The notes under the pieces are model-generated. The model was not told where the DNA came from, searched no databases, and worked only from the letters and a program-made list of their open reading frames with translations. Position numbers and translations under genes: made by a program. Positions 4,260 through 34,596 of a stretch of DNA of 48,961 nucleotides are shown one piece after another (positions within the stretch are counted from its first letter, which is position 1; every line of letters starts with the position of its first letter). This DNA is from Chthoniobacteraceae bacterium. Lineage in GTDB: Bacteria > Verrucomicrobiota > Verrucomicrobiia > Chthoniobacterales > Chthoniobacteraceae. The DNA lies in contig CANJNZ010000027.1 of the NCBI GenBank assembly GCA_947476045.1, positions 1 through 48,961 on the forward strand. The letters are read 5' to 3'.

Positions 4260-5450
4260 ATGCATACCGCCCGGCAATTTCTTCTCGTCTGTCTGTTCGT
4301 ATTATCCAACGCAGTGCATGGTGCTGATGCGCCTGCCGCTGAGCGTATCAAACCGGACAGATTTGGGATCATTTTCAACAAAGGCTACGCGGGGGATAAT
4401 CTGCCATCCGAACCGGAGGAGTTTGAAAAACTGATCATCGCCATCAAAAACGCGGGCTTCAATGCGGTGCTCTGCAAATATGACGCGAAGCGCCTCGCAA
4501 TCTGCGCGAAACATGATGTGCAGATGCTCGTGGATTTACTCGTGGAGGAACAGCACGTCTTCAAGAATCCCACGAAGGCGCAGGAGGTCTGCGAGAGCAT
4601 CAAGGACAGCAAGGCTGTGTATGGCTATCATCTGTGGAGCGACAACATCGGCAAGACATACACAGGCCGCACTCGCGATGTGCAAAACGTGCATCAATGG
4701 GATCCTTATCACGCCACCTATGTCGGCTCCTACAAAATGGCGGGTGTGGCCCAAGTGCAGGACATGGATCTGTTCGGCTATTACGATTTTCATTTCAAAC
4801 GCGGCGGGCATTGGGGGCATCTCAATCAAGCGTGGGCGGTCGCCAAATCGCGCGACATAGGCTTTCTCCGCTACGACGATGCGTCGCCGGGTCTCGTCGG
4901 AAAAGGGAACCCCAACCGCGTTGGCTACAGCATCGCCACGTCCATCGTATTCGGGCTGCGAGGCTATATGTTTCACTACGTGAGAGGTCAGATTGATTTC
5001 AAAACTTTTGAACTCGACGCCCTTGGAAAAGACCTGGCGCGCGTGAATGAGCGATTCGCCGTCGTTGGTCCTGAACTCGTCGAAATTGGAATCCCCAGCG
5101 CCGTTTATTCGACGCGCATCAGCAAAACAGAGAGGAACGATCCGAACGTGGGCGAGCCAATCGTGCCCGGAGGGCTTGCGGCTGTTCCTGCGGATTGTTG
5201 GTTTCAGATTTCATCCGGCGAAGTGTTGGTGGGCGAATCTTTGGATGCCGCCAAGCGCACCGTCCTCGTCTTCGCCTGCCACAATCCCTACGAAAATCAA
5301 AAGGTCGTCGTCACTTTCCCAAAAGGCATCAAGGGCGTGGAAATTTTTGAACGCGCCCTGAAACAATGGCGTCCACTCGCAATGGAGAACGGAGCGGTGT
5401 GTTTTACCGTCGAAGATTTCGGCGTGGAGTTGCTACGCGTGCAGAGGTGA
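4260..5450 (+). CDS. Secreted protein of unknown function, possibly TIM-barrel
   Basis: A 396-residue secreted protein with a signal peptide (roughly residues 1-22, ending VHGADA). I do not recognise the family with certainty. The first 270 residues read like the strands of a TIM barrel: FGIIFNKGY, AGFNAVLCKYD, VQMLVDLLVEEQ, AVYGYHLWSDN, DLFGYYDFHFKRGG, IGFLRYDD. The last 100 or so residues look beta-rich, ending in FGVELLRV, as in the accessory beta domains of glycoside hydrolases. A glycoside-hydrolase-like role is therefore an inference from fold pattern and secreted context; no catalytic pair can be named. It converges on the permease gene (5458) with seven bases between stops. Confidence 0.7.
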   Translation: MHTARQFLLVCLFVLSNAVHGADAPAAERIKPDRFGIIFNKGYAGDNLPSEPEEFEKLIIAIKNAGFNAVLCKYDAKRLAICAKHDVQMLVDLLVEEQHVFKNPTKAQEVCESIKDSKAVYGYHLWSDNIGKTYTGRTRDVQNVHQWDPYHATYVGSYKMAGVAQVQDMDLFGYYDFHFKRGGHWGHLNQAWAVAKSRDIGFLRYDDASPGLVGKGNPNRVGYSIATSIVFGLRGYMFHYVRGQIDFKTFELDALGKDLARVNERFAVVGPELVEIGIPSAVYSTRISKTERNDPNVGEPIVPGGLAAVPADCWFQISSGEVLVGESLDAAKRTVLVFACHNPYENQKVVVTFPKGIKGVEIFERALKQWRPLAMENGAVCFTVEDFGVELLRVQR

Positions 5451-22286: not shown

Positions 22287-22619
22287 ATGTTTGACACCAT
22301 CTCCGACACCAACCGCCCCGAAATCACCAGCCACCGGCCCGAGCCATCCGCCGAAGTCAGCGAGTTGCGCACCGATGTCGAGCGCCTCTACATCATCACC
22401 GAGGCCCTCTGGCGCATCTTAAAAGAGAAACACGGCATGGAGGAAAGCGACATCATCCGCCAAGTCACCGCCATAGACATGGAGGACGGCAGGCTCGACG
22501 GACGCAAAGCCAAGGCCCCGCCCCAGCCTTGCCCCAAATGCGGGCGAGTCCTCGGCAAGCAGCGCATGAAATGCCTCTACTGCGGCGAACTCATCGCCAC
22601 CCAGCCTTTCGACCGATAG
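22287..22619 (+). CDS. Small zinc-ribbon protein
   Basis: A 110-residue protein with an N-terminal helix that could form a short coiled coil (SELRTDVERLYIITEALWRI, about residues 25-46) and a C-terminal zinc ribbon, CPKCGR...CLYCGE (C82, C85, C96, C99). Such four-cysteine ribbons usually bind one zinc and mediate protein or nucleic acid contact. It starts nine bases after hpt, so it is likely the second gene of that operon, but no known link between the two functions is visible. Family not named; structural call good. Confidence 0.75.
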   Translation: MFDTISDTNRPEITSHRPEPSAEVSELRTDVERLYIITEALWRILKEKHGMEESDIIRQVTAIDMEDGRLDGRKAKAPPQPCPKCGRVLGKQRMKCLYCGELIATQPFDR

Positions 22620-22668: not shown

Positions 22669-23295
22669 TTATTTGGTAGTGGCAGCTTGGAGTTTCTTTT
22701 CTCGCAATGGCTTGAGCCACTCAGGCGCGGGGCCGTGGCCGGGGAGGGAGGTGTCGGGGCGGCGGTGGAGGCCGATGGTGCGGGCGAGGAGCCATTCGGC
22801 GGCGTCCCAAAAGCGGATGGTGTCGAGGAGCGGGTTCACGAGGTTGGTGATGGGGCAGTAGTGGACGTTTTTCGGGTTCGTGTGGTGGATGGCGTGGTGG
22901 TGCGGCGTCTGGAGCAGGCGGATGTTTTGGAGGAAGGTGATGACGGGGCCGTTTTCCCTCCGAGTGCGGTGGGACCATTTGTGGATTTCGTTGGCGTTGG
23001 CGCTGACGATGGCGAAGAGCCACGTCTGCCAGCCGAGAACGCCGAGCTTCCACGCGATGAGGAGGAGGATGGCGGAGAAGGTGACGAGGTCCCACGAGCT
23101 TTGCCACCAGGTGTTGCGCGTCATGTGGCGCGGCAGGTGGTGGTGGATGACGTTGGCGCGGCCAATCGTGGAGCCGATGAGCGGCGTGTCTTCGCGGATG
23201 TAGGCGTCTTCGAGCCAGTGGACGATGCCCGCGAGGAAGTCGGCGCTGGCGAGCACGAGGACGATTTGCAACAGGACGATGATGGCGTTTTTCAT
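22669..23295 (-). CDS. CarF/PEDS1 (TMEM189)-type lipid desaturase
   Basis: A 208-residue membrane enzyme. The histidine pattern fits the plasmanylethanolamine desaturase family (CarF in myxobacteria, PEDS1/TMEM189 in animals): H26 in FLAGIVHWLED; H51-H53 and H57 in NVIHHHLPRHM; H105 and H109 in EIHKWSHR; H132-H134, H137 and H138 in PHHHAIHH; H145 before YCPITNLVNPLLD. These would hold a di-iron centre at the membrane surface. About four hydrophobic stretches (for example IVLLQIVLVLASADFL) fit. Family members introduce the vinyl-ether double bond of plasmalogens. The reaction here is inferred from the motif set. It converges on the hpt operon, and lies left of the repeat region. No other ether-lipid gene is visible. 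Confidence 0.85.
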   Translation of the reverse strand: MKNAIIVLLQIVLVLASADFLAGIVHWLEDAYIREDTPLIGSTIGRANVIHHHLPRHMTRNTWWQSSWDLVTFSAILLLIAWKLGVLGWQTWLFAIVSANANEIHKWSHRTRRENGPVITFLQNIRLLQTPHHHAIHHTNPKNVHYCPITNLVNPLLDTIRFWDAAEWLLARTIGLHRRPDTSLPGHGPAPEWLKPLREKKLQAATTK

Positions 23296-23483: not shown

Positions 23484-23776
23484 GTGCGGCGCGGAGGGTC
23501 GGCAGTGCGGCGCGGATGTTGGCAGTGTGGAGAGGTAGGTCGCTCGTGTGGAGAGGGAGGTCGGTCATGTGGGGAGGGAGGTCGTTCATGTGGGGAGGGA
23601 GGTTGGTCATGTGGAGATGGAGGTCGTTCATGTGGAGAGGGAGGTCGTTCATGTGGAGAGGGAGGTCGTTCATGTGGAGAGGGAGGTCGCTCATGTGGAG
23701 CGAGAGGTCGTTCATGTGGAGAGGGAGGTCGGTCGTGTGGAGCGAGAGGTCGCTCATGTGGAGAGGGAGGTCGCTC
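23484..23776. repeat. 21-bp tandem repeat array (minisatellite)
   Basis: Twelve near-identical 21-bp units run from 23525 to 23776, consensus ATGTGGAGAGGGAGGTCGTT plus C, with differences at only a few positions. Two degenerate units (23484-23504 of 21 bp and 23505-23524 of 20 bp) precede them, so the array probably grew rightward or decays leftward. Units 6 and 7 are identical. The plus strand is purine-rich. Because the unit is seven codons, five of the six frames are open across the array; none has a recognisable protein. Confidence 0.95.
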
Positions 23777-24070
23777 GTGTGGGATAACACCGCTCCTTTC
23801 TGCCCCCACTTTCATCGGGTTTGTCCCCACTTTCCCTATCTGTTTCTGCTACGGAGCCTGTTTTCTGACAACTTTGCTGGGAAATATGCCGGAAATGGCC
23901 CGGCGATTCCGTGCGGTGGAAATGTTTCCCTCTACATAGGCAAGTCCCGCCGCGACGGAATGGCCGTTCCTGCCATCCCTGCCGGGATTTTTCTCACCAC
24001 ACGCAAGAAAATCCAGTGCTGAAGCGCCGTGCCACTTCCCATGCTACCCTGGCAACCATGCGGACAGGCC

Positions 24071-24099: not shown

Positions 24100-25254
24100 C
24101 TACATCTGGTTGTAGAGAATCTCCAGCGACATGACGCCGTAGGTTGTCGTGAGGACGTTGTTGTTTTCCTTCCAGCGGGCGACATCGTTGGCCCAGAAGC
24201 CGTCGGGGGTTTGTAGTTTCATCAACTGCAAGCCGAGTTCGTGACGCCAGTCCACTTTCTTGCCGCCGCGATCCAGCTCCGTGAGGCCTGCGGCGGTGAG
24301 GCCCTTGGCCATGAGGTGGAGGTAGTAGAAATACCCCTGCTTTTCGAGGCCGGGGTTTTCTTCGAGGGTGTAGTGCCTCTTGAGCCAGTCTATGGCAGCG
24401 ACGACACGCGGGTCGTCCTTTTTCAAATCGGCGTAGATGAAGCTGAGCAGCCCCGCGTAGCTCATGGAGCCGTAGCTGCGCAGCGCCTTGCCGCCGCCTT
24501 CGGTGTCAATTTCGCCGGCGTTGCTGAATCCGGGGTAATAGACGAAGCCGCCTTTGTTGTCGGCGTCCTTGGCGACTTTTTCGCCTTTGTTGTGCGAAGG
24601 CAGGTTCTGGCAGCGGGAGATGAAATCAATCGCGGCTGACCAGTTGAGTTGTTTCTCGCCGGGCTTGTCGGCGGCGAGGGATTGCGTGGCGCGCAGGGAT
24701 TCGAGGGCGATGTAGGTGTTGTCGAGGTCGGGATGGCCGCGCTTGGGGCTTGCGCCGATGGTTCCGTAGCCGATGCCGCCGTCGGTCTCGGGCTTGGCCA
24801 TGCCGGAAGCCTGTTGTCCGATGACGTAGGCGCGCGCGGCGCGCAAAAGCGTGGTGTCCTTTTCATCGCCGACGAGTGCGAGCGCGAGCAGGCAGACGCT
24901 GGTGTTGTAGTTCGCGAGACCGCCTTCCTTATCGTAGATGCCGCCGTCGGGCTGCGCGAATTTGCGCAGATACGCCGCCCCTTTTTTCACGGCGTCGGAG
25001 GTTGCGAATTTCCCCGTCGGATCGCGGAGCAGCGCGATGAGCGGCAGTGCGCTGAGCGCGGGATGCGTGTTGTCTTTGCCGAAGCTGCCGTCGGCATTTT
25101 GCTGCGTGAGCAGAAAGGCGGTGCCGCGATTCATGGAGTCGCGGAGTTCGTTGCGGAAGGAGAGGTTTTTTTCCTCGCGCGGCAGCGGTTCGTTGGCGGC
25201 GTGCGCGAAACTGGCGAGGGCGAGTGTGGCGAGGATGAATTGGCGGCGTTTCAT
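24100..25254 (-). CDS. Secreted squalene-hopene-cyclase-like alpha/alpha barrel protein
   Basis: A 384-residue exported protein with a leader that resembles a Tat or Sec signal (MKRRQFILATLALASFAHA). It carries at least four QW-like repeat blocks of the prenyltransferase/squalene oxidase repeat family: TAFLLTQQNADGSFGKDN, AAYLRKFAQPDGGIYDKEG, CQNLPSHNKGE with the GGFVYYPGF block, and MKLQTPDGFWANDVARW. In cyclases these stabilise an alpha/alpha barrel; small secreted versions in PVC genomes lack the DXDD catalytic motif, and none is visible here, so it is probably a binding or structural barrel rather than a terpene cyclase. Its ATG overlaps the YdjY-like stop as ATGA, so the two are coupled. 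Confidence 0.82.
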   Translation of the reverse strand: MKRRQFILATLALASFAHAANEPLPREEKNLSFRNELRDSMNRGTAFLLTQQNADGSFGKDNTHPALSALPLIALLRDPTGKFATSDAVKKGAAYLRKFAQPDGGIYDKEGGLANYNTSVCLLALALVGDEKDTTLLRAARAYVIGQQASGMAKPETDGGIGYGTIGASPKRGHPDLDNTYIALESLRATQSLAADKPGEKQLNWSAAIDFISRCQNLPSHNKGEKVAKDADNKGGFVYYPGFSNAGEIDTEGGGKALRSYGSMSYAGLLSFIYADLKKDDPRVVAAIDWLKRHYTLEENPGLEKQGYFYYLHLMAKGLTAAGLTELDRGGKKVDWRHELGLQLMKLQTPDGFWANDVARWKENNNVLTTTYGVMSLEILYNQM

Positions 25255-28231: not shown

Positions 28232-31200
28232 CTACTTCGTTACCTTGAGGCGGCCGTAGGTTTCAGACGTTGCATTCGGAATGGTGACCGTCACATGATG
28301 GGATGGACTGCCGGGTGTGATCGTCACGTTTCCCGAGGTTGTCGTCGGAATGGTCACAGCAGTCCACGTCACGAGGTCGTTGCTATATTCCACGACCTGT
28401 GTGGTGGCCGGAGAAAGCGATTGGTCATGACGGGCGTATTCAAAGACCATGTTGCCGCCGGTCTTTTTCAGCGTCGGCTGGATGGATCGCGAGGCGACCA
28501 TGGGAGCGCCGCCGAGTGTGAACTCCGCCAGATTGGTGAGGCCATCGAAGTCAGGATCATCCAGGGGACCATCATTTACGCCCGGTGTGAGACCCTGCGC
28601 AGGATCGTTCGCCCATGCATCAAATCCGGTGAGTGTGCTGGCAAGCGTGAGCACGCCATTCGCCTCGGAGAAACTCCAGATTTGTGTGCCAGTGGTTTTT
28701 GTCCAGACGTTGGAATTCTCCGACCAGCCACCAGTCACGGTGAAGGTCGTCCCGAAAGTCTGCGTCGCTACATTGACCAACGGCCATGTGCCGGAGATGA
28801 GAGTGACGGCGGAGGTGTCGATGGTAAAATCACCATTAAGGGTGACGACCCCGCTGCCGGTGATGTTTGTATTTGAAGTATTGGTGACGACAAATTTCAG
28901 ACCTGCATTGTCAGCGAGAGTCAGAGTTCCTGCGTTTACGACCGTGTTGCCGCTATAGGTGTTCACGCTATTGAGGGATAGCGCGCCGGTGCCGATTTTT
29001 GTCAGTGCGCCGCCACCGCTGATGATGCCGGTAAGGGACGATGCGGTGCCATTGGCGGTAATGGTGACCGTGCCGGTCAAAGCGACACCGCCGGCGATGG
29101 TGGCGGTGGAGCCGTTGAGGAGCAGCGAGCCGCCGTGGCTGCCGTCGAGGGTGATGGCGCGGGCCATGGTGCTGGTGCCGTAGAGTTCGAGGGCGGTGTA
29201 GTTTTTTGCGCTGAGGTTGTTGGCGAAGGTGTAGTTGCTGCCGCCGGTTTCGGTGGAGCTGTCGAGGCGGAAAGTGTTGCCACCCGTCCATGTGAAAATT
29301 CCCGCGCCGCTGGCTGCTGCGTTTCCATTGAGGAGGTTCGTGCTCGTGCTGCTCACGCCTTTGTAGGAAAGCGTGCCGCTATTCATCGTGATGGAACTGC
29401 CGGCGGCGATGGTGATGGTGGGCGTGGCGGTTTTGAATTGCAGCACGCCGCCGGTCTGCACGGTGACGGTGTTGCCGGTGGCTGTGCCGGTTCCTGCGAC
29501 GATGCCGGTGTTGATTTCCAACAAACCGCCGCCGCTCACCAGCGCGGTGTTGTTGTTTGCGGCGGCGGTGGAGTTGCCGACCATTAGCCAGTTCAAATTC
29601 GAGAGCACTCCGCCGCTGCTGACGGTGAGTGTGTTGCCGGTGCCCGCCGCCGTGCCGCCGCTGCCGGTCGTGGTGCCACCGCTGCCGATGGCGATCTGGC
29701 TGTTTGCCAGCGCCCACGTGGACCCTGCGCCGGTGACGGTGATCGAGTTTCCCGTGCAGCCGGTCTGCGCGCCGATGTGGACGAATTGCGCGCCGCCCAT
29801 GGAGATGGTTCCGCCGTTGCTGACGAGGATGCTGTTGTTCGTGGAGTTGGCGTTCGATGCAAGGTATAGATTGTTGTTGGTGATGAACCACTGCGACCCG
29901 CTGCCGGTGACAGTGACGGTGTTGTTGCTACTATTGAGGATGGAGCGATCGTTCGTGCCGCCGCCGGAATAAACGTAGCCGCCATTGGAAATGGTGAGGC
30001 TGTTGCCGGTGCCGCCATTGCCGCCCGCGCTGAGCATTCCGAGGTAAAGGCGGTGTGTGCCGGAGCCTGCGCCGGTTCCGCGAAGCAACTTCGAGCCTGC
30101 GCCAGTGACGATGACGGAGTTGTTGTTGGTAGTTTCGCCGATGTAGAGGCGCTGTTCGTTGATGATGCCGCCGTTGCTGATGCTGAACGTGGAGCCTCCA
30201 TCAATCCGCGTGGAGGCTGCAGTGGTGAGACTGCCGCCGTTGATGGCGAGTGCGCCTGCGGTGGTCGCCGCCGCTCCGCTGATGGAACTGCCGATGCCCG
30301 TCAAAGTGAGCGTGCCGGGAAACGAAGAAGTGAGGGCACCCGCCCCGGACAGAACACCGGAGAGCGTGACCGATCCCGCGCCGCTTCCGGCGACGGTGGT
30401 GCTTGCGGTCAGCGCGAGATTATTTCCGATCACCACCGCTGCCGCGCTGTTTTGATTCAACTGCGGAAGGACGCTTCCATTCGAGGAAAGCGAGAGGCTG
30501 TTGCCGGCGAGCGTCGCGGTGGAACCGCCGAAATTGATCTGATTGAGCAGGAAGCCCGCGTTGAGATCGTTCGTGGACGTGTAGGCGCCCGCTGCATTGA
30601 AATTGAGGACGAGACTCGCGTTGCCAGTGCTCTCGGGTCTGCCGGGATTCCATTTCGTGGCGTCGCTCCAGTTGCCGTTCACGGCGTTCATCCATGAGGT
30701 GTTTGCGGATTCAAGAATGTGCACGGTCGCGGTGTTGGGTGCGCCCAACGTGTAGCCGGCGCCAGCCGCCAGTGTGGCGATGACCGTTTTATCCGGCTCG
30801 ACGATTCCGTTGGCAGTCTGCGTGACCGTGATCGCAGCCGAAGCCTGCCCTGCGGAAATCGTGACTGGCGACGTGAGTGCAGCGTAGTTCACACCGTTCA
30901 CGGCAGTCCCGCCGATGGTGTAATTGACGTTCAGCACATTCGTCGTGTCACCGGTGCGTGTAACGGTGAAAATCGCTGTGTCGCCTGCGGTTTCCGTCGC
31001 GGTGGCATCGGTCGCCACGATGCTCACCAACACAGCTTCGTCGTCATAAATGACGACCGTGGCATTCGTGTTCGCACCGAGCGTGTAGGTGACCGCCGGG
31101 GAAAGTTGCAAAACGACCGTCTCGTTGATTTCGGGAATCGCGTCGTCAATCGGAGTGACTGTCGCAGTCGTGCTGGTCTCGCCCGCCGGGATCGTCGCAC

Positions 31201-34200
31201 TGAGTGCGAGCGGCTGGTAATCGCTGCCATAGGTGGCGCTGCCGATGATATCGAAATAAACGGGCAATGCGTTCGTGGTGTCGCCGGTGCGTGTGATGGT
31301 GAAGGTGCCCGTGTCCAGTCCCGCTTCGCTCGCGCTCGCATCCGTGGCGGCGACAGTCACGGTATTCGGCGGTGTCGGGAATGACGTGGTGGAAATCGGA
31401 TCCAAGTAGCTCGCCTCGATGGGCCGGTGCTGTGCGCCGCCGGGGAAGTCCACGCCGACCGCGAGATTGTCGCCGCCGCCGCCTTCCTTTTGAAGTGCCT
31501 CGATGTAGTAGCGCTGGCCCGCAGTGAGCGTGATCGCCGCGGATTTCTGGCTCGTAAATTTCGTCCACTGGCGGGAGCTGGTCCAGCTCGTCACCGAGGC
31601 AATTTTCACTTTATTCGCAGGCTGGTCGGTCGTGCTCAGCCACAGTTCCGAGTTGTCGTCGGAGGCGATGTAAAAAGTGTAAGCGCCGGTCGTGGGCGCG
31701 CGGAAGTAGCCGCGTGCGCGCTGACCGTAGTTGTCCTCGAAATCCGTGCCCGCTTCAAAGAGCGAGGTGAGCACGTAGCTGTAAGTCGGTGAATTCGGAT
31801 AGGCCGCGTTGCTTGTGAGGTTGGACACCGATGTGCCGCTGATCCCTTCCCAATGTTCCAGTGTAATACCGCCGACGACAGCCGCCGGCGCGGTCGCGGT
31901 GAAGTTCACATTCACAGCGGACGATCCGATGACCACGGGATTCGTGAACTGCGCATCGAGCGTCCATCCACTGTGCAACGCGCTCACCGTGTAGCTGCCC
32001 GCGCCGAGCGCGCCGAGTGTGTAGCGCCCATCGGCATCCGTGTAGGTGATGTGGCTGCTAGTGTCTTTGATCAGCACGTCCTGCACTGGCGTGCCGTCGC
32101 TTTTCGTCGCGCGTCCGCTGATGGTGAAATTCGTCGGCGTGCCCACACGAACCACGACGTTTTGCACCGCGGTCTTCCCCTTCATGTCGCTCACGGTGCA
32201 GCGCACATTGTAATCGCCCGCAGCGCTCCAGCTTTTGGTCTGTGTGGCTGAGTTGTCCACGCTCACATTGCTGCCGTCGCCAAAATCCCACGAGTAGGCC
32301 AGCGCGTCGCCATCGGGATCGGATGCCACCGCGGTCAGCGTGACCGATGTATTCACCGCCGGTGAAAAGTTGCTCGCCGTCACCACCGCCACCGGTTGGC
32401 TGTCGGCGAGCGTGCTGTTGAAATTCACCACCATGTCCACGTAGTCGTCCGGTGCCGTGCCGCCACGCGCGACTGTGGTGACGGTGATTCCCTGCTCCGC
32501 GTCATTGAAACTGCGCCCGACCAGCAACGATGCATCGGAATTTCCCGACGAAGTCAGCGGGTTCATGTCGAGCAGTTCGTCGTCGCCTTGCGACCAGCAA
32601 ATCATCGCGCCGTTGTCGGTCGCGAATGTGTGCGAAGTGCCGTTCCAGTTCGGGCGATATTCCGTGTAGTAAATGCGGTCGTCCTTTCGGATGCGCAGCG
32701 AATACGGATGCCCGGCGGTGAGCGTGACTTTGTCGGCGTTGTAGAGCCGGTAAGTGCCGCTGGTGTTCACCGTCACCACGTCGCTCGATTCGAGCCAGTG
32801 GAGTTCGTAACGTTCGAGCGTGTTATACTGATTCAGCCCCGCAGACCCCATCACGCTGTATTTGCTGCCGTATTCCACGTGAGTGCCCGCGCCGATGGGC
32901 GAGTCCGAGGTCGCATCCCAAAAGTTCGCGTGCCACAAGCCGAAATTGTGTCCCCATTCGTGCATATAAATACCGGCGCTGAAACATTTGATCCATGTGC
33001 CTTTTCCGCCGACGTAGCCGAGACCGCAGTAGTTGCCGAAGAGGCTGCTCGAAAAAACAATCGCATCGAAATCGAAGTTCGCCGTGTCGTAAGGGTGGTT
33101 GCCGCTTCCATCCACATACGCAGCGGCGACGGCGCGCCCCGCGCTCATGATCGCGTTGTCCGTGCCGTTTGCGGCATACCATGCTTCCGTCTGCGGCAGC
33201 ACGAGCGTGGGCGTGAAAGCAAACGTTCCCTCCAGTTTTCCGTAGGACCAGTCCGACCACTGATCCACGACCGTCTGCAACTGCGTCTGCATATTTGAAT
33301 CCGACGTGGGCTCGGCAGCTTGATCGGAAAAACGGACGCGAATCGCGAGGAAGGTTTTGTTTCCCTGCGTCCATGTCGCAGGCACGACCGGACTCACACC
33401 GCCCGAGTTGCCGCCGCCGCCTGCTGCGGCGACGAGTTGTCCTTCCGGAGTTTGTAACCACCGTCCGATGTGTCCGCCGCTGCAAAGCCATACAATCTTC
33501 GCGCCGGTATCCACGGCGGTCTCGTCGCCTTTGCTTTCCGTCGCTGCGCCGGAAATCGGGCAGACCGTCTCCACTTCGCCAAGCTGCGCGCGGAGGTCGG
33601 CGGCCTCTGCCTTTTCGAGCACCTCGTAACCTTCATCGCGCACCGCGAGCAGGCTTTTGCCATCCACCAGATTCACGCCCACGCCGAGGATGGGCGTTTG
33701 CGGACGCGAAATGTCCTTCAGCCGCTTTCCGTAGGTGTAGGCGCGGTATTCTTTCCCCGCGATACTCGCCGTCCGATAAACCGGTTCATCCACCGTGGTT
33801 CCCGGCAACGGTCGCACCGCGAGCACCATCAGATCACCGCGCCCGCTCACACGATGCTCGATGCGTTCCGCGATTTCCGGCGGCAACGCCTTGCGCAATT
33901 CATACGGCAACAGCGCATCAATCGCCGCCTTCGGATTTTGCCGGATGAGTGTCCCAATTGCTTCGCTCCGCGCTTTGGCGAGCGCGAGTCCCCCCGGGAG
34001 CATCGCCGTTTTTTCATCTGCGGACGCGGCCTCATAGCGCTCCGCCCAAGCCCGGAAAGCATCCAGTGCCGGTGCGAGTTGCGCGGGCGGAACTACCACC
34101 GCCGGCTTGCTTGCGGCGACGCGATTGGTCGCTCCAGAGCCCGTCGTGCCTTTTCCACCACAGCAATCACCAGCATCATGAGTCTCGCGAGTAGTGTGCG

Positions 34201-34366
34201 AAACCTTTCCGTCATCCTTCGTTTGCACCGCAGGCGTGCGCTCACTCTCCGTGTGTGCAGATTGCCCGGGCGATGGATTTTCTTTGGTTCGCAGGCACCA
34301 TTCAGCGAGCCACGCGCACGCCACCATGGTGATGAAAAAAATGATGGAACGAAAACGTGGAGACAT
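28232..34366 (-). CDS. Giant exported M6-like protease / adhesin with autotransporter-associated repeats
   Basis: A 2044-residue protein from the ATG at 34366, preferred because it opens a hydrophobic leader (FRSIIFFITMVACAWLAEW); a frame extension to 34504 is less likely. Order, approximate residues: N-terminal 400-residue region; peptidase M6/gametolysin-like domain with HEWGHNFGLWH (H469, E470, H473, H479) and Met-turn M506; PKD domain 655-740 (YSWDFGDGS); carboxypeptidase-regulatory-like domain 745-825; PA14 domain 828-978 (TFYIASDDNSELWLS); two Calx-beta domains 998-1215; autotransporter-associated beta-strand repeats to about 1890; a C-terminal DPDFDGLTNLAEFTLGG module typical of verrucomicrobial secreted proteins. 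Likely a surface-attached protease that binds glycan or protein. No autotransporter barrel is present, so secretion route is unknown. Confidence 0.88.
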   Translation of the reverse strand: MSPRFRSIIFFITMVACAWLAEWCLRTKENPSPGQSAHTESERTPAVQTKDDGKVSHTTRETHDAGDCCGGKGTTGSGATNRVAASKPAVVVPPAQLAPALDAFRAWAERYEAASADEKTAMLPGGLALAKARSEAIGTLIRQNPKAAIDALLPYELRKALPPEIAERIEHRVSGRGDLMVLAVRPLPGTTVDEPVYRTASIAGKEYRAYTYGKRLKDISRPQTPILGVGVNLVDGKSLLAVRDEGYEVLEKAEAADLRAQLGEVETVCPISGAATESKGDETAVDTGAKIVWLCSGGHIGRWLQTPEGQLVAAAGGGGNSGGVSPVVPATWTQGNKTFLAIRVRFSDQAAEPTSDSNMQTQLQTVVDQWSDWSYGKLEGTFAFTPTLVLPQTEAWYAANGTDNAIMSAGRAVAAAYVDGSGNHPYDTANFDFDAIVFSSSLFGNYCGLGYVGGKGTWIKCFSAGIYMHEWGHNFGLWHANFWDATSDSPIGAGTHVEYGSKYSVMGSAGLNQYNTLERYELHWLESSDVVTVNTSGTYRLYNADKVTLTAGHPYSLRIRKDDRIYYTEYRPNWNGTSHTFATDNGAMICWSQGDDELLDMNPLTSSGNSDASLLVGRSFNDAEQGITVTTVARGGTAPDDYVDMVVNFNSTLADSQPVAVVTASNFSPAVNTSVTLTAVASDPDGDALAYSWDFGDGSNVSVDNSATQTKSWSAAGDYNVRCTVSDMKGKTAVQNVVVRVGTPTNFTISGRATKSDGTPVQDVLIKDTSSHITYTDADGRYTLGALGAGSYTVSALHSGWTLDAQFTNPVVIGSSAVNVNFTATAPAAVVGGITLEHWEGISGTSVSNLTSNAAYPNSPTYSYVLTSLFEAGTDFEDNYGQRARGYFRAPTTGAYTFYIASDDNSELWLSTTDQPANKVKIASVTSWTSSRQWTKFTSQKSAAITLTAGQRYYIEALQKEGGGGDNLAVGVDFPGGAQHRPIEASYLDPISTTSFPTPPNTVTVAATDASASEAGLDTGTFTITRTGDTTNALPVYFDIIGSATYGSDYQPLALSATIPAGETSTTATVTPIDDAIPEINETVVLQLSPAVTYTLGANTNATVVIYDDEAVLVSIVATDATATETAGDTAIFTVTRTGDTTNVLNVNYTIGGTAVNGVNYAALTSPVTISAGQASAAITVTQTANGIVEPDKTVIATLAAGAGYTLGAPNTATVHILESANTSWMNAVNGNWSDATKWNPGRPESTGNASLVLNFNAAGAYTSTNDLNAGFLLNQINFGGSTATLAGNSLSLSSNGSVLPQLNQNSAAAVVIGNNLALTASTTVAGSGAGSVTLSGVLSGAGALTSSFPGTLTLTGIGSSISGAAATTAGALAINGGSLTTAASTRIDGGSTFSISNGGIINEQRLYIGETTNNNSVIVTGAGSKLLRGTGAGSGTHRLYLGMLSAGGNGGTGNSLTISNGGYVYSGGGTNDRSILNSSNNTVTVTGSGSQWFITNNNLYLASNANSTNNSILVSNGGTISMGGAQFVHIGAQTGCTGNSITVTGAGSTWALANSQIAIGSGGTTTGSGGTAAGTGNTLTVSSGGVLSNLNWLMVGNSTAAANNNTALVSGGGLLEINTGIVAGTGTATGNTVTVQTGGVLQFKTATPTITIAAGSSITMNSGTLSYKGVSSTSTNLLNGNAAASGAGIFTWTGGNTFRLDSSTETGGSNYTFANNLSAKNYTALELYGTSTMARAITLDGSHGGSLLLNGSTATIAGGVALTGTVTITANGTASSLTGIISGGGALTKIGTGALSLNSVNTYSGNTVVNAGTLTLADNAGLKFVVTNTSNTNITGSGVVTLNGDFTIDTSAVTLISGTWPLVNVATQTFGTTFTVTGGWSENSNVWTKTTGTQIWSFSEANGVLTLASTLTGFDAWANDPAQGLTPGVNDGPLDDPDFDGLTNLAEFTLGGAPMVASRSIQPTLKKTGGNMVFEYARHDQSLSPATTQVVEYSNDLVTWTAVTIPTTTSGNVTITPGSPSHHVTVTIPNATSETYGRLKVTK

Positions 34367-34596
34367 GAAGGGTTTTGGGATATTGGGCCGCTTTTCAGCC
34401 GCACTTGCTATGCCACGAATCGCAGCTCTCCCGGGTGAAGAAGGGGTTGCTGCGTGGGATTTGCGGGCGCTTTGTGGCGGGGCATCCCTTTCACTAGCAA
34501 ACATTCACTGCTGCGCCAGAGGCGATTTTCTTAAATTTGCGCACTAGGAATGACATCCAGCCTTGCGCAACGAAGCGCACCTGCTCATTCAAAATC

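Follow-up and report, generated by a model that had tools for sequence, protein, structure and literature searches.

A Chthoniobacteraceae bacterium (Verrucomicrobiota) encodes a putative intact, O2-dependent diiron desaturase that, with a probability of roughly one half, acts on phospholipid acyl chains in a manner like that of plant FAD4 and belongs to a branch of the PF10520 family apart from the plasmalogen desaturase CarF/PEDS1. The branch is called here the N-class, after the Asn at the position of mouse PEDS1 F118. The gene lies on a stretch of 48,961 nucleotides (contig CANJNZ010000027.1, assembly GCA_947476045.1), hereafter the window. Computationally, the protein belongs to the family, carries the full histidine set and the essential Asp (D30), falls on a separate branch, and lacks the N-terminal helix of CarF/PEDS1; no ether-lipid synthase of the AGPS type was found in its genome, its distribution is patchy, and some of its homologues are linked to LplT-Aas-like genes.

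Results

The desaturase gene starts with an ATG at 23295 (Table 1) and is the only PF10520 match in its genome. The Pfam Lipid_desat model (PF10520) covered residues 17–179 with 126.7 bits (cut-off, 26.4; E = 1.3e-36). An earlier model-made reading of the letters (the sequence-only reading) had correctly recognised the open reading frame with its histidines, its exact coordinates, the domain family, and a putative verrucomicrobium as host, leaving the minus strand unstated. Sequence searches of the PDB, with the protein alone and as a profile, returned no relative, and a PHROGs search gave no match.

Table 1. Features of the desaturase gene and its surroundings (positions within the window; mouse PEDS1 numbering in brackets)
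Feature	Position	Strand	Basis
PF10520 membrane lipid desaturase, 208 aa	22669..23295	-	Pfam match; AlphaFold mean pLDDT 96.0
H26 codon (mouse H96)	23218..23220	-	alignment
D30 codon (mouse D100, single further essential residue)	23206..23208	-	alignment
N48 codon (mouse F118 position)	23152..23154	-	alignment
H51-H52 codons (mouse H121-H122)	23140..23145	-	alignment
N61 codon (mouse H131 position)	23113..23115	-	alignment
H105-x3-H109 motif (mouse H187, H191)	22969..22983	-	alignment
H134-x2-H137-H138 motif (mouse H215, H218, H219)	22882..22896	-	alignment
110-aa protein with CxxC pairs, follows hpt	22287..22619	+	convergent neighbour; no Pfam match
Squalene-cyclase-like repeat protein (E 2.3e-7), no clear lipid role	24100..25254	-	upstream neighbour, same strand
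21-bp tandem array, 12.2 copies, between desaturase and next upstream gene	23526..23782	.	also in nearest relative G001

Homologues were gathered in one scan of named genomes using a DNA pattern for N-[EQ]-I-H-K-W-[SA]-H, which returned 102 loci, 94 encoding a homologue and eight not; limited to this motif, the sample is no census. Four loci from genome searches and two phage proteins were added and two truncated rows (L079, L107) left out, for 98 tree rows; L003 and L039 encode identical proteins. The residue classes were defined with the alignment already read but the tree not yet built. The tree divided into two halves (support, 99/96) of 38 Phe rows and 60 Asn rows, coinciding with the division at the F118 column, and the split held (100/100) in a reduced tree of 82 rows, from which both trait columns and 16 rows that were divergent or on long branches had been removed. 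The window protein sits in the Asn half, nearest to two other Verrucomicrobiota rows (L024 and L108; 100/97), and forcing it into the opposite half cost 46.9 log units and was rejected (AU p = 0.0108).

The Phe half comprises Archangiaceae, Myxococcaceae, Leptospiraceae, Silvanigrellaceae, Legionellaceae, Actinomycetota, Planctomycetota, and others, of which we take the first three to be families of the Cystobacterineae and Leptospira. Reports of CarF come from Cystobacterineae and Leptospira (PMC9131029), and the Phe half, from a tree built without the type CarF or animal sequences, is read here as CarF/PEDS1 (the CarF half). A phylogeny with CarF and TMEM189 was one check proposed in the sequence-only reading; the tree obtained here goes against that reading, the window protein lying outside the half with the myxobacterial and Leptospiraceae homologues. 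The same reading had named ‘unrelated Kua-like’ desaturases as the contrary outcome, a misstatement, as Kua is an old name of TMEM189, which is PEDS1 (PMC9131029). The Asn half holds Verrucomicrobiota, Beta- and Gammaproteobacteria, some Planctomycetota, an Erythrobacter phage, and single rows from Acidobacteriota, Bacteroidota, and Vulcanimicrobiota.

Several rows of the sample deserve separate mention. Five from Actinomycetota (L058, L060, L074, L089, L097) form a CarF-half subclade of uncertain function with Gly at the H131 position. Three CarF-half homologues (L055, L068, L088) are on contigs labelled Woesearchaeota and Paceibacterota, possibly through binning error; an AGPS search of these small genomes gave no match, and PMC9131029 states that archaea lack CarF. 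Four contigs titled Akkermansia muciniphila (L040, L051, L105, L106), a label that looks doubtful, stand among rows labelled Opitutae or Verrucomicrobiales. Phages contribute to both halves: an unannotated record of a 595-kb uncultured phage (L006, LR756511.1) encodes at 4962-5417 a short, CarF-like PF10520 protein (138.3 bits) with Phe at F118, the H131-type His, and all eight histidines, and Erythrobacter phage vB_EliS-L02 (L005) carries at 2337-2873, between phoH and the portal gene, an N-class PF10520 gene annotated as hypothetical.

Residues were mapped by spacing and by alignment with the CarF half, the mouse numbers being those of PMC8960569. The eight histidines of mouse PEDS1 (H96, H121, H122, H187, H191, H215, H218, and H219; PMC8960569) correspond in order to H26, H51, H52, H105, H109, H134, H137, and H138, and the essential D100 to D30, which is invariant in both the N-class and the CarF-half alignments. 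All patterns quoted in the sequence-only reading as the full PEDS1 signature are present (HHH-x3-H at H51-53 and H57, H-x3-H at H105 and H109, HHH-x2-HH at H132-134 and H137-138, with H26 and H145), but five of these residues (H53, H57, H132, H133, H145) fall outside the family set, and the set is not peculiar to PEDS1, the same eight histidines being found in plant FAD4 (PMC9131029, PMC8960569).

As aligned, the window protein has the complete histidine set but differs, with Asn in each case, at two positions linked to PEDS1 activity. Residues reported to bear on this activity are D100, F118, and the PEDS1-specific H131 (CarF H113; PMC8960569). F118 stacks on an iron-ligand His, is among 20 residues conserved in both PEDS1 and FAD4, and leaves 5.9% of the mouse activity when replaced by Ala; H131 is not absolutely required, with 7.4% left (PMC8960569). 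The F118 column holds Phe in 38/38 CarF-half rows and Asn in the 60 N-class rows covering it (two truncated rows not counted). At the H131 column, His occurs in 32/38 CarF-half rows and also in 10/60 N-class rows, so that H131 alone marks a tendency, not a divide; it was dropped as deciding residue, as both nearest relatives, L024 and L108, carry His at this position.

Against the NCBIfam CarF equivalog (NF045946), the window protein scored 81 bits (cut-off, 500), the alignment beginning at profile position 55. The cut-off alone says little, because the one CarF-half protein with a listed score, the Archangium homologue L098 (359.2 bits), also misses it. It is easy to take a bacterial PF10520 gene for a plasmalogen desaturase, because this equivalog is the one NCBIfam model matched by all scanned proteins (58 N-class and 38 CarF-half).

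In the AlphaFold model of the window protein (57 family rows; pTM, 0.88; mean pLDDT in Table 1), a long N-terminal helix (residues 2–31) bears H26 and D30. CarF/PEDS1 enzymes have four transmembrane helices. Ahead of the matching helix, the CarF-half model (built with 37 rows; mean pLDDT, 91.2) shows an extra long helix (residues 20–48) absent from the window model, and the window protein is shorter at the N-terminus than CarF/PEDS1 by about 50 residues, this helix included. A Foldseek search of the PDB with the window model gave no match at E ≤ 0.001. The top VIA-align match was the diiron fatty-acid 2-hydroxylase Scs7p (4zr0) at a middling Z of 7.0 (153 residues, 11% identity), with nothing relevant thereafter. 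Diiron membrane desaturases and hydroxylases of this kind share a fold; the modelled similarity is in keeping with that kinship and, because the fold is shared, does not discriminate between them.

The AGPS query, a Legionella protein encoded near its CarF-half gene, closely matched solved alkyl-DHAP synthases (best E = 5e-118). At E ≤ 1e-28, a threshold chosen once the matches had shown a gap from E 2.8e-31 to 3.2e-25, AGPS-type matches occurred in 27/36 CarF-half genomes (none in 9/36) versus 4/53 N-class genomes (none in 49/53, the window’s own included); at ≥170 bits the counts were 21/36 and 4/53. The Fisher value (3e-11) overstates the contrast, as relatedness and phylum are confounded with it. 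The CarF-half count covers 37 loci in 36 genomes (38 rows without phage L006), and the N-class count leaves out L050, L057, L078, L090, L091, L107, and L108 (the last sharing a genome with L066). All four positive N-class genomes (L018, L043, L099, L104; one Pedobacter, three Gammaproteobacteria) belong to one tree subclade. No AGPS-type synthase was found in the window’s genome (96.8% complete), the best match (E = 6e-18) being of the glycolate-oxidase type; NCBIfam places both of its PF02913 proteins in that type, and one of them is closest in the PDB to lactate dehydrogenase and glycolate oxidase. An AGPS-type gene is likewise absent from the window, which agrees, as far as AGPS is concerned, with the earlier remark that no other ether-lipid gene is nearby. 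The two weak matches to PF07993 (acyl-CoA reductase) in this genome are uninformative, because all 14 control genomes match too. In two Legionellaceae MAGs (L013, L046), an alkyl-DHAP synthase lies about 700 bp downstream of the CarF-half gene on the same strand, an arrangement that predicts plasmalogen synthesis in some Legionellaceae.

Within the window, the desaturase gene stands alone and is convergent with its downstream neighbour, and the squalene-cyclase-like neighbour is also kept by members of the genus that lack an intact desaturase. Around the gene, GC content in 1-kb steps does not stand out and a promoter scan found none; the window as a whole has no tRNA gene and no Rfam match at gathering scores. 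Elsewhere in it, a 2090-aa open reading frame (28232-34504) appears by eye to encode a secreted protease in which an HEWGHNFG site is combined with PKD-like and Calx-beta-like parts and with repeats resembling those of autotransporters.

A PF10520 domain match was present in 4/387 genomes of the phylum, and in 1/38 relatives and 1/10 genus genomes (own genome, G000, included). The nearest relative by flanking genes (G001; proteins 87–94% identical) has a 69-bp piece of the desaturase gene (98.6% identical) beside the same 21-bp tandem array, followed by another gene; in G003, hpt adjoins the squalene-cyclase-like gene with no desaturase between. Because G001 keeps this remnant beside the same array, the last ancestor shared with G001 probably had the gene, most of which was lost from G001 later. 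Because the nearest tree rows are Verrucomicrobiota too, the gene may have been transferred between members of the phylum or lost repeatedly in the others. The plasmid collection held no homologue, and the viral_contigs set no relative by protein or by pattern.

Neighbouring genes at N-class loci were surveyed by tblastn with named queries, an initial clustering of neighbours having been discarded for shadow ORFs in GC-rich DNA. The survey covered 54 loci, 50 of them reaching 250 bp or more downstream (L002-L004 skipped); the longer stretches L007-L009 and the window had no LplT or Aas match. The next same-strand downstream gene was LplT-like at 14/54 loci, 13 of them from one Verrucomicrobiota clade (13/15 rows; gaps of 15–34 bp as aligned). 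At the gammaproteobacterial locus L011, a fused MFS-acyltransferase-AMP-ligase (LplT-Aas-like) protein lies 59 bp downstream; its sister L071 is without such a neighbour. An Aas-like acyltransferase follows the LplT-like gene at 8/13 Verrucomicrobiota loci, the other five stretches ending there, so that it is behind or fused at 9/14. The best NCBIfam model for the L105 protein is LplT (221.6 bits; cut-off, 297), and the truncated L011 fusion matches the acyl-[ACP]-phospholipid O-acyltransferase model (1184.3 bits; cut-off, 1349), each under its cut-off. CarF-half loci had no LplT-like or Aas-like gene (0/38). LplT flips lysophospholipid and Aas re-acylates it, together a remodelling of lysophospholipids (PMC11416262). 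The Aas-like query matched 9/28 N-class genomes; because the window’s own genome (E ≤ 1e-10) and 18/27 others had no match, this gene context is evidence for a part of the branch but no direct evidence for the window gene.

Regulators are also frequent beside other N-class genes: a Cro/C1-type HTH regulator is divergent within 360 bp upstream at 11 loci, on the same strand upstream at two, and about 3 kb off at one, and a divergent LysR regulator is upstream at eight. At L024 and L108, from two related genomes, proteins thioredoxin-like by eye are encoded directly upstream on the same strand, possibly as a redox partner.

Discussion

In the reading favoured here, the histidines would bind a pair of irons at the face of the membrane, this diiron site would activate O2, and the enzyme would introduce a double bond into a glycerophospholipid or lysophospholipid acyl chain, much as FAD4 acts on the sn-2 16:0 of phosphatidylglycerol. 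Desaturation may then tune the membrane, in many relatives under the control of the neighbouring regulator.

A true plasmanylethanolamine desaturase of the CarF/PEDS1 type, its ether lipids supplied by an unrecognised route, is improbable. The protein shares domain, eight histidines, and D100 with these enzymes, and CarF is the only named bacterial PF10520 function in the literature found, but it falls in the other half of the tree and is missing the N-terminal helix. H131 is dispensable in part in the mouse enzyme and present as His in the nearest relatives, yet Asn also replaces F118, and one alphaproteobacterial and three plant homologues, from groups without the H131-type His, failed to complement carF (PMC9131029). 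Likewise, four N-class genomes carry AGPS, but the window’s genome offers only its glycolate-oxidase-type PF02913 proteins, and vinyl-ether formation by the window protein is unlikely because no route to an alkyl-ether substrate is seen. The sequence-only reading’s assignment to the CarF/PEDS1 type is therefore not sustained by tree, residues 118 and 131, helix, or CarF-profile score, nor is its suggestion of plasmalogens, given the lack of both that type and an AGPS-type synthase; its other suggestion, another desaturated lipid, is the direction preferred here.

A diiron enzyme of the same fold might instead act on another lipid (a free fatty acid, a hopanoid or carotenoid, a sphingolipid), or hydroxylate rather than desaturate. 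We regard this as rather unlikely. In its favour are an FA_hydroxylase (PF04116) match of 21.9 bits, if below the cut-off of 31, the fatty-acid 2-hydroxylase that came first in the structural comparison, and the squalene-cyclase-like match next door. Against it, the FA_hydroxylase match is more than 100 bits under that of PF10520, desaturases share the hydroxylase fold, and the neighbouring gene is kept by genus members without an intact desaturase. Least probable is a passenger gene that matters little and is being lost, as happened in G001. The single domain match among ten genus genomes and the 69-bp piece beside the same array would suit such a history, but the window copy is full length, with intact catalytic residues and a confident model.

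Extending the acyl-chain desaturase reading to the whole branch, we tentatively suggest, at somewhat less than even odds, a third functional branch of the PEDS1/FAD4 family in bacteria and their phages, made up of single-gene desaturases with Asn at F118 that would act with the LplT-Aas cycle on (lyso)phospholipid acyl chains, spread horizontally, and often stand beside their own regulator. The division into two halves, which follows a single residue close to the active site and, less sharply, AGPS, provides a simple rule for recognising likely plasmalogen makers; it predicts plasmalogens in some unexpected bacteria, certain Legionellaceae among them, and not in these Verrucomicrobiota, and puts forward a candidate lipid-remodelling desaturase. 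In the open-access literature searched, no paper joining CarF, Verrucomicrobia, and plasmalogen was found, nor, for PF10520/Lipid_desat and the CarF family, a description of the Asn branch. Apart from PMC9131029, the PF10520 papers deal, judging by their titles, with plants or algae, and those on the CarF family with CRISPR or cyclic-nucleotide signalling.

Comparison with known systems

With CarF/PEDS1 (TMEM189), the window protein shares PF10520, the eight histidines and their spacing, the essential Asp, and membrane helices; it differs in its tree half, in Asn at both F118 and H131, in lacking the roughly 50 residues with the N-terminal helix, and in a genome without an AGPS-type synthase. 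Scs7p resembles it in overall helical fold, at low identity and with PF04116 below cut-off. FAD4, the plant palmitoyl-phosphatidylglycerol delta-3-trans desaturase, has PF10520, the same eight histidines, and likewise no H131, the position being usually Arg in plants (PMC9131029). By its published description FAD4 should keep the Phe at F118, unlike N48 of the window protein, and because F118 is conserved in PEDS1 and FAD4 (PMC8960569), FAD4 would by this residue go with PEDS1 and not with the N-class. A non-PEDS1 group of bacterial PF10520 proteins is already known, from an alphaproteobacterial homologue without H113 that failed to complement carF (described in PMC9131029 after Gallego-Garcia 2019). 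Compared by description, these alphaproteobacterial homologues are, like the window protein, bacterial PF10520 members outside the animal and myxobacterial group, and the protein of the Erythrobacter phage, whose host is an alphaproteobacterium, falls in the window protein’s half of the tree.
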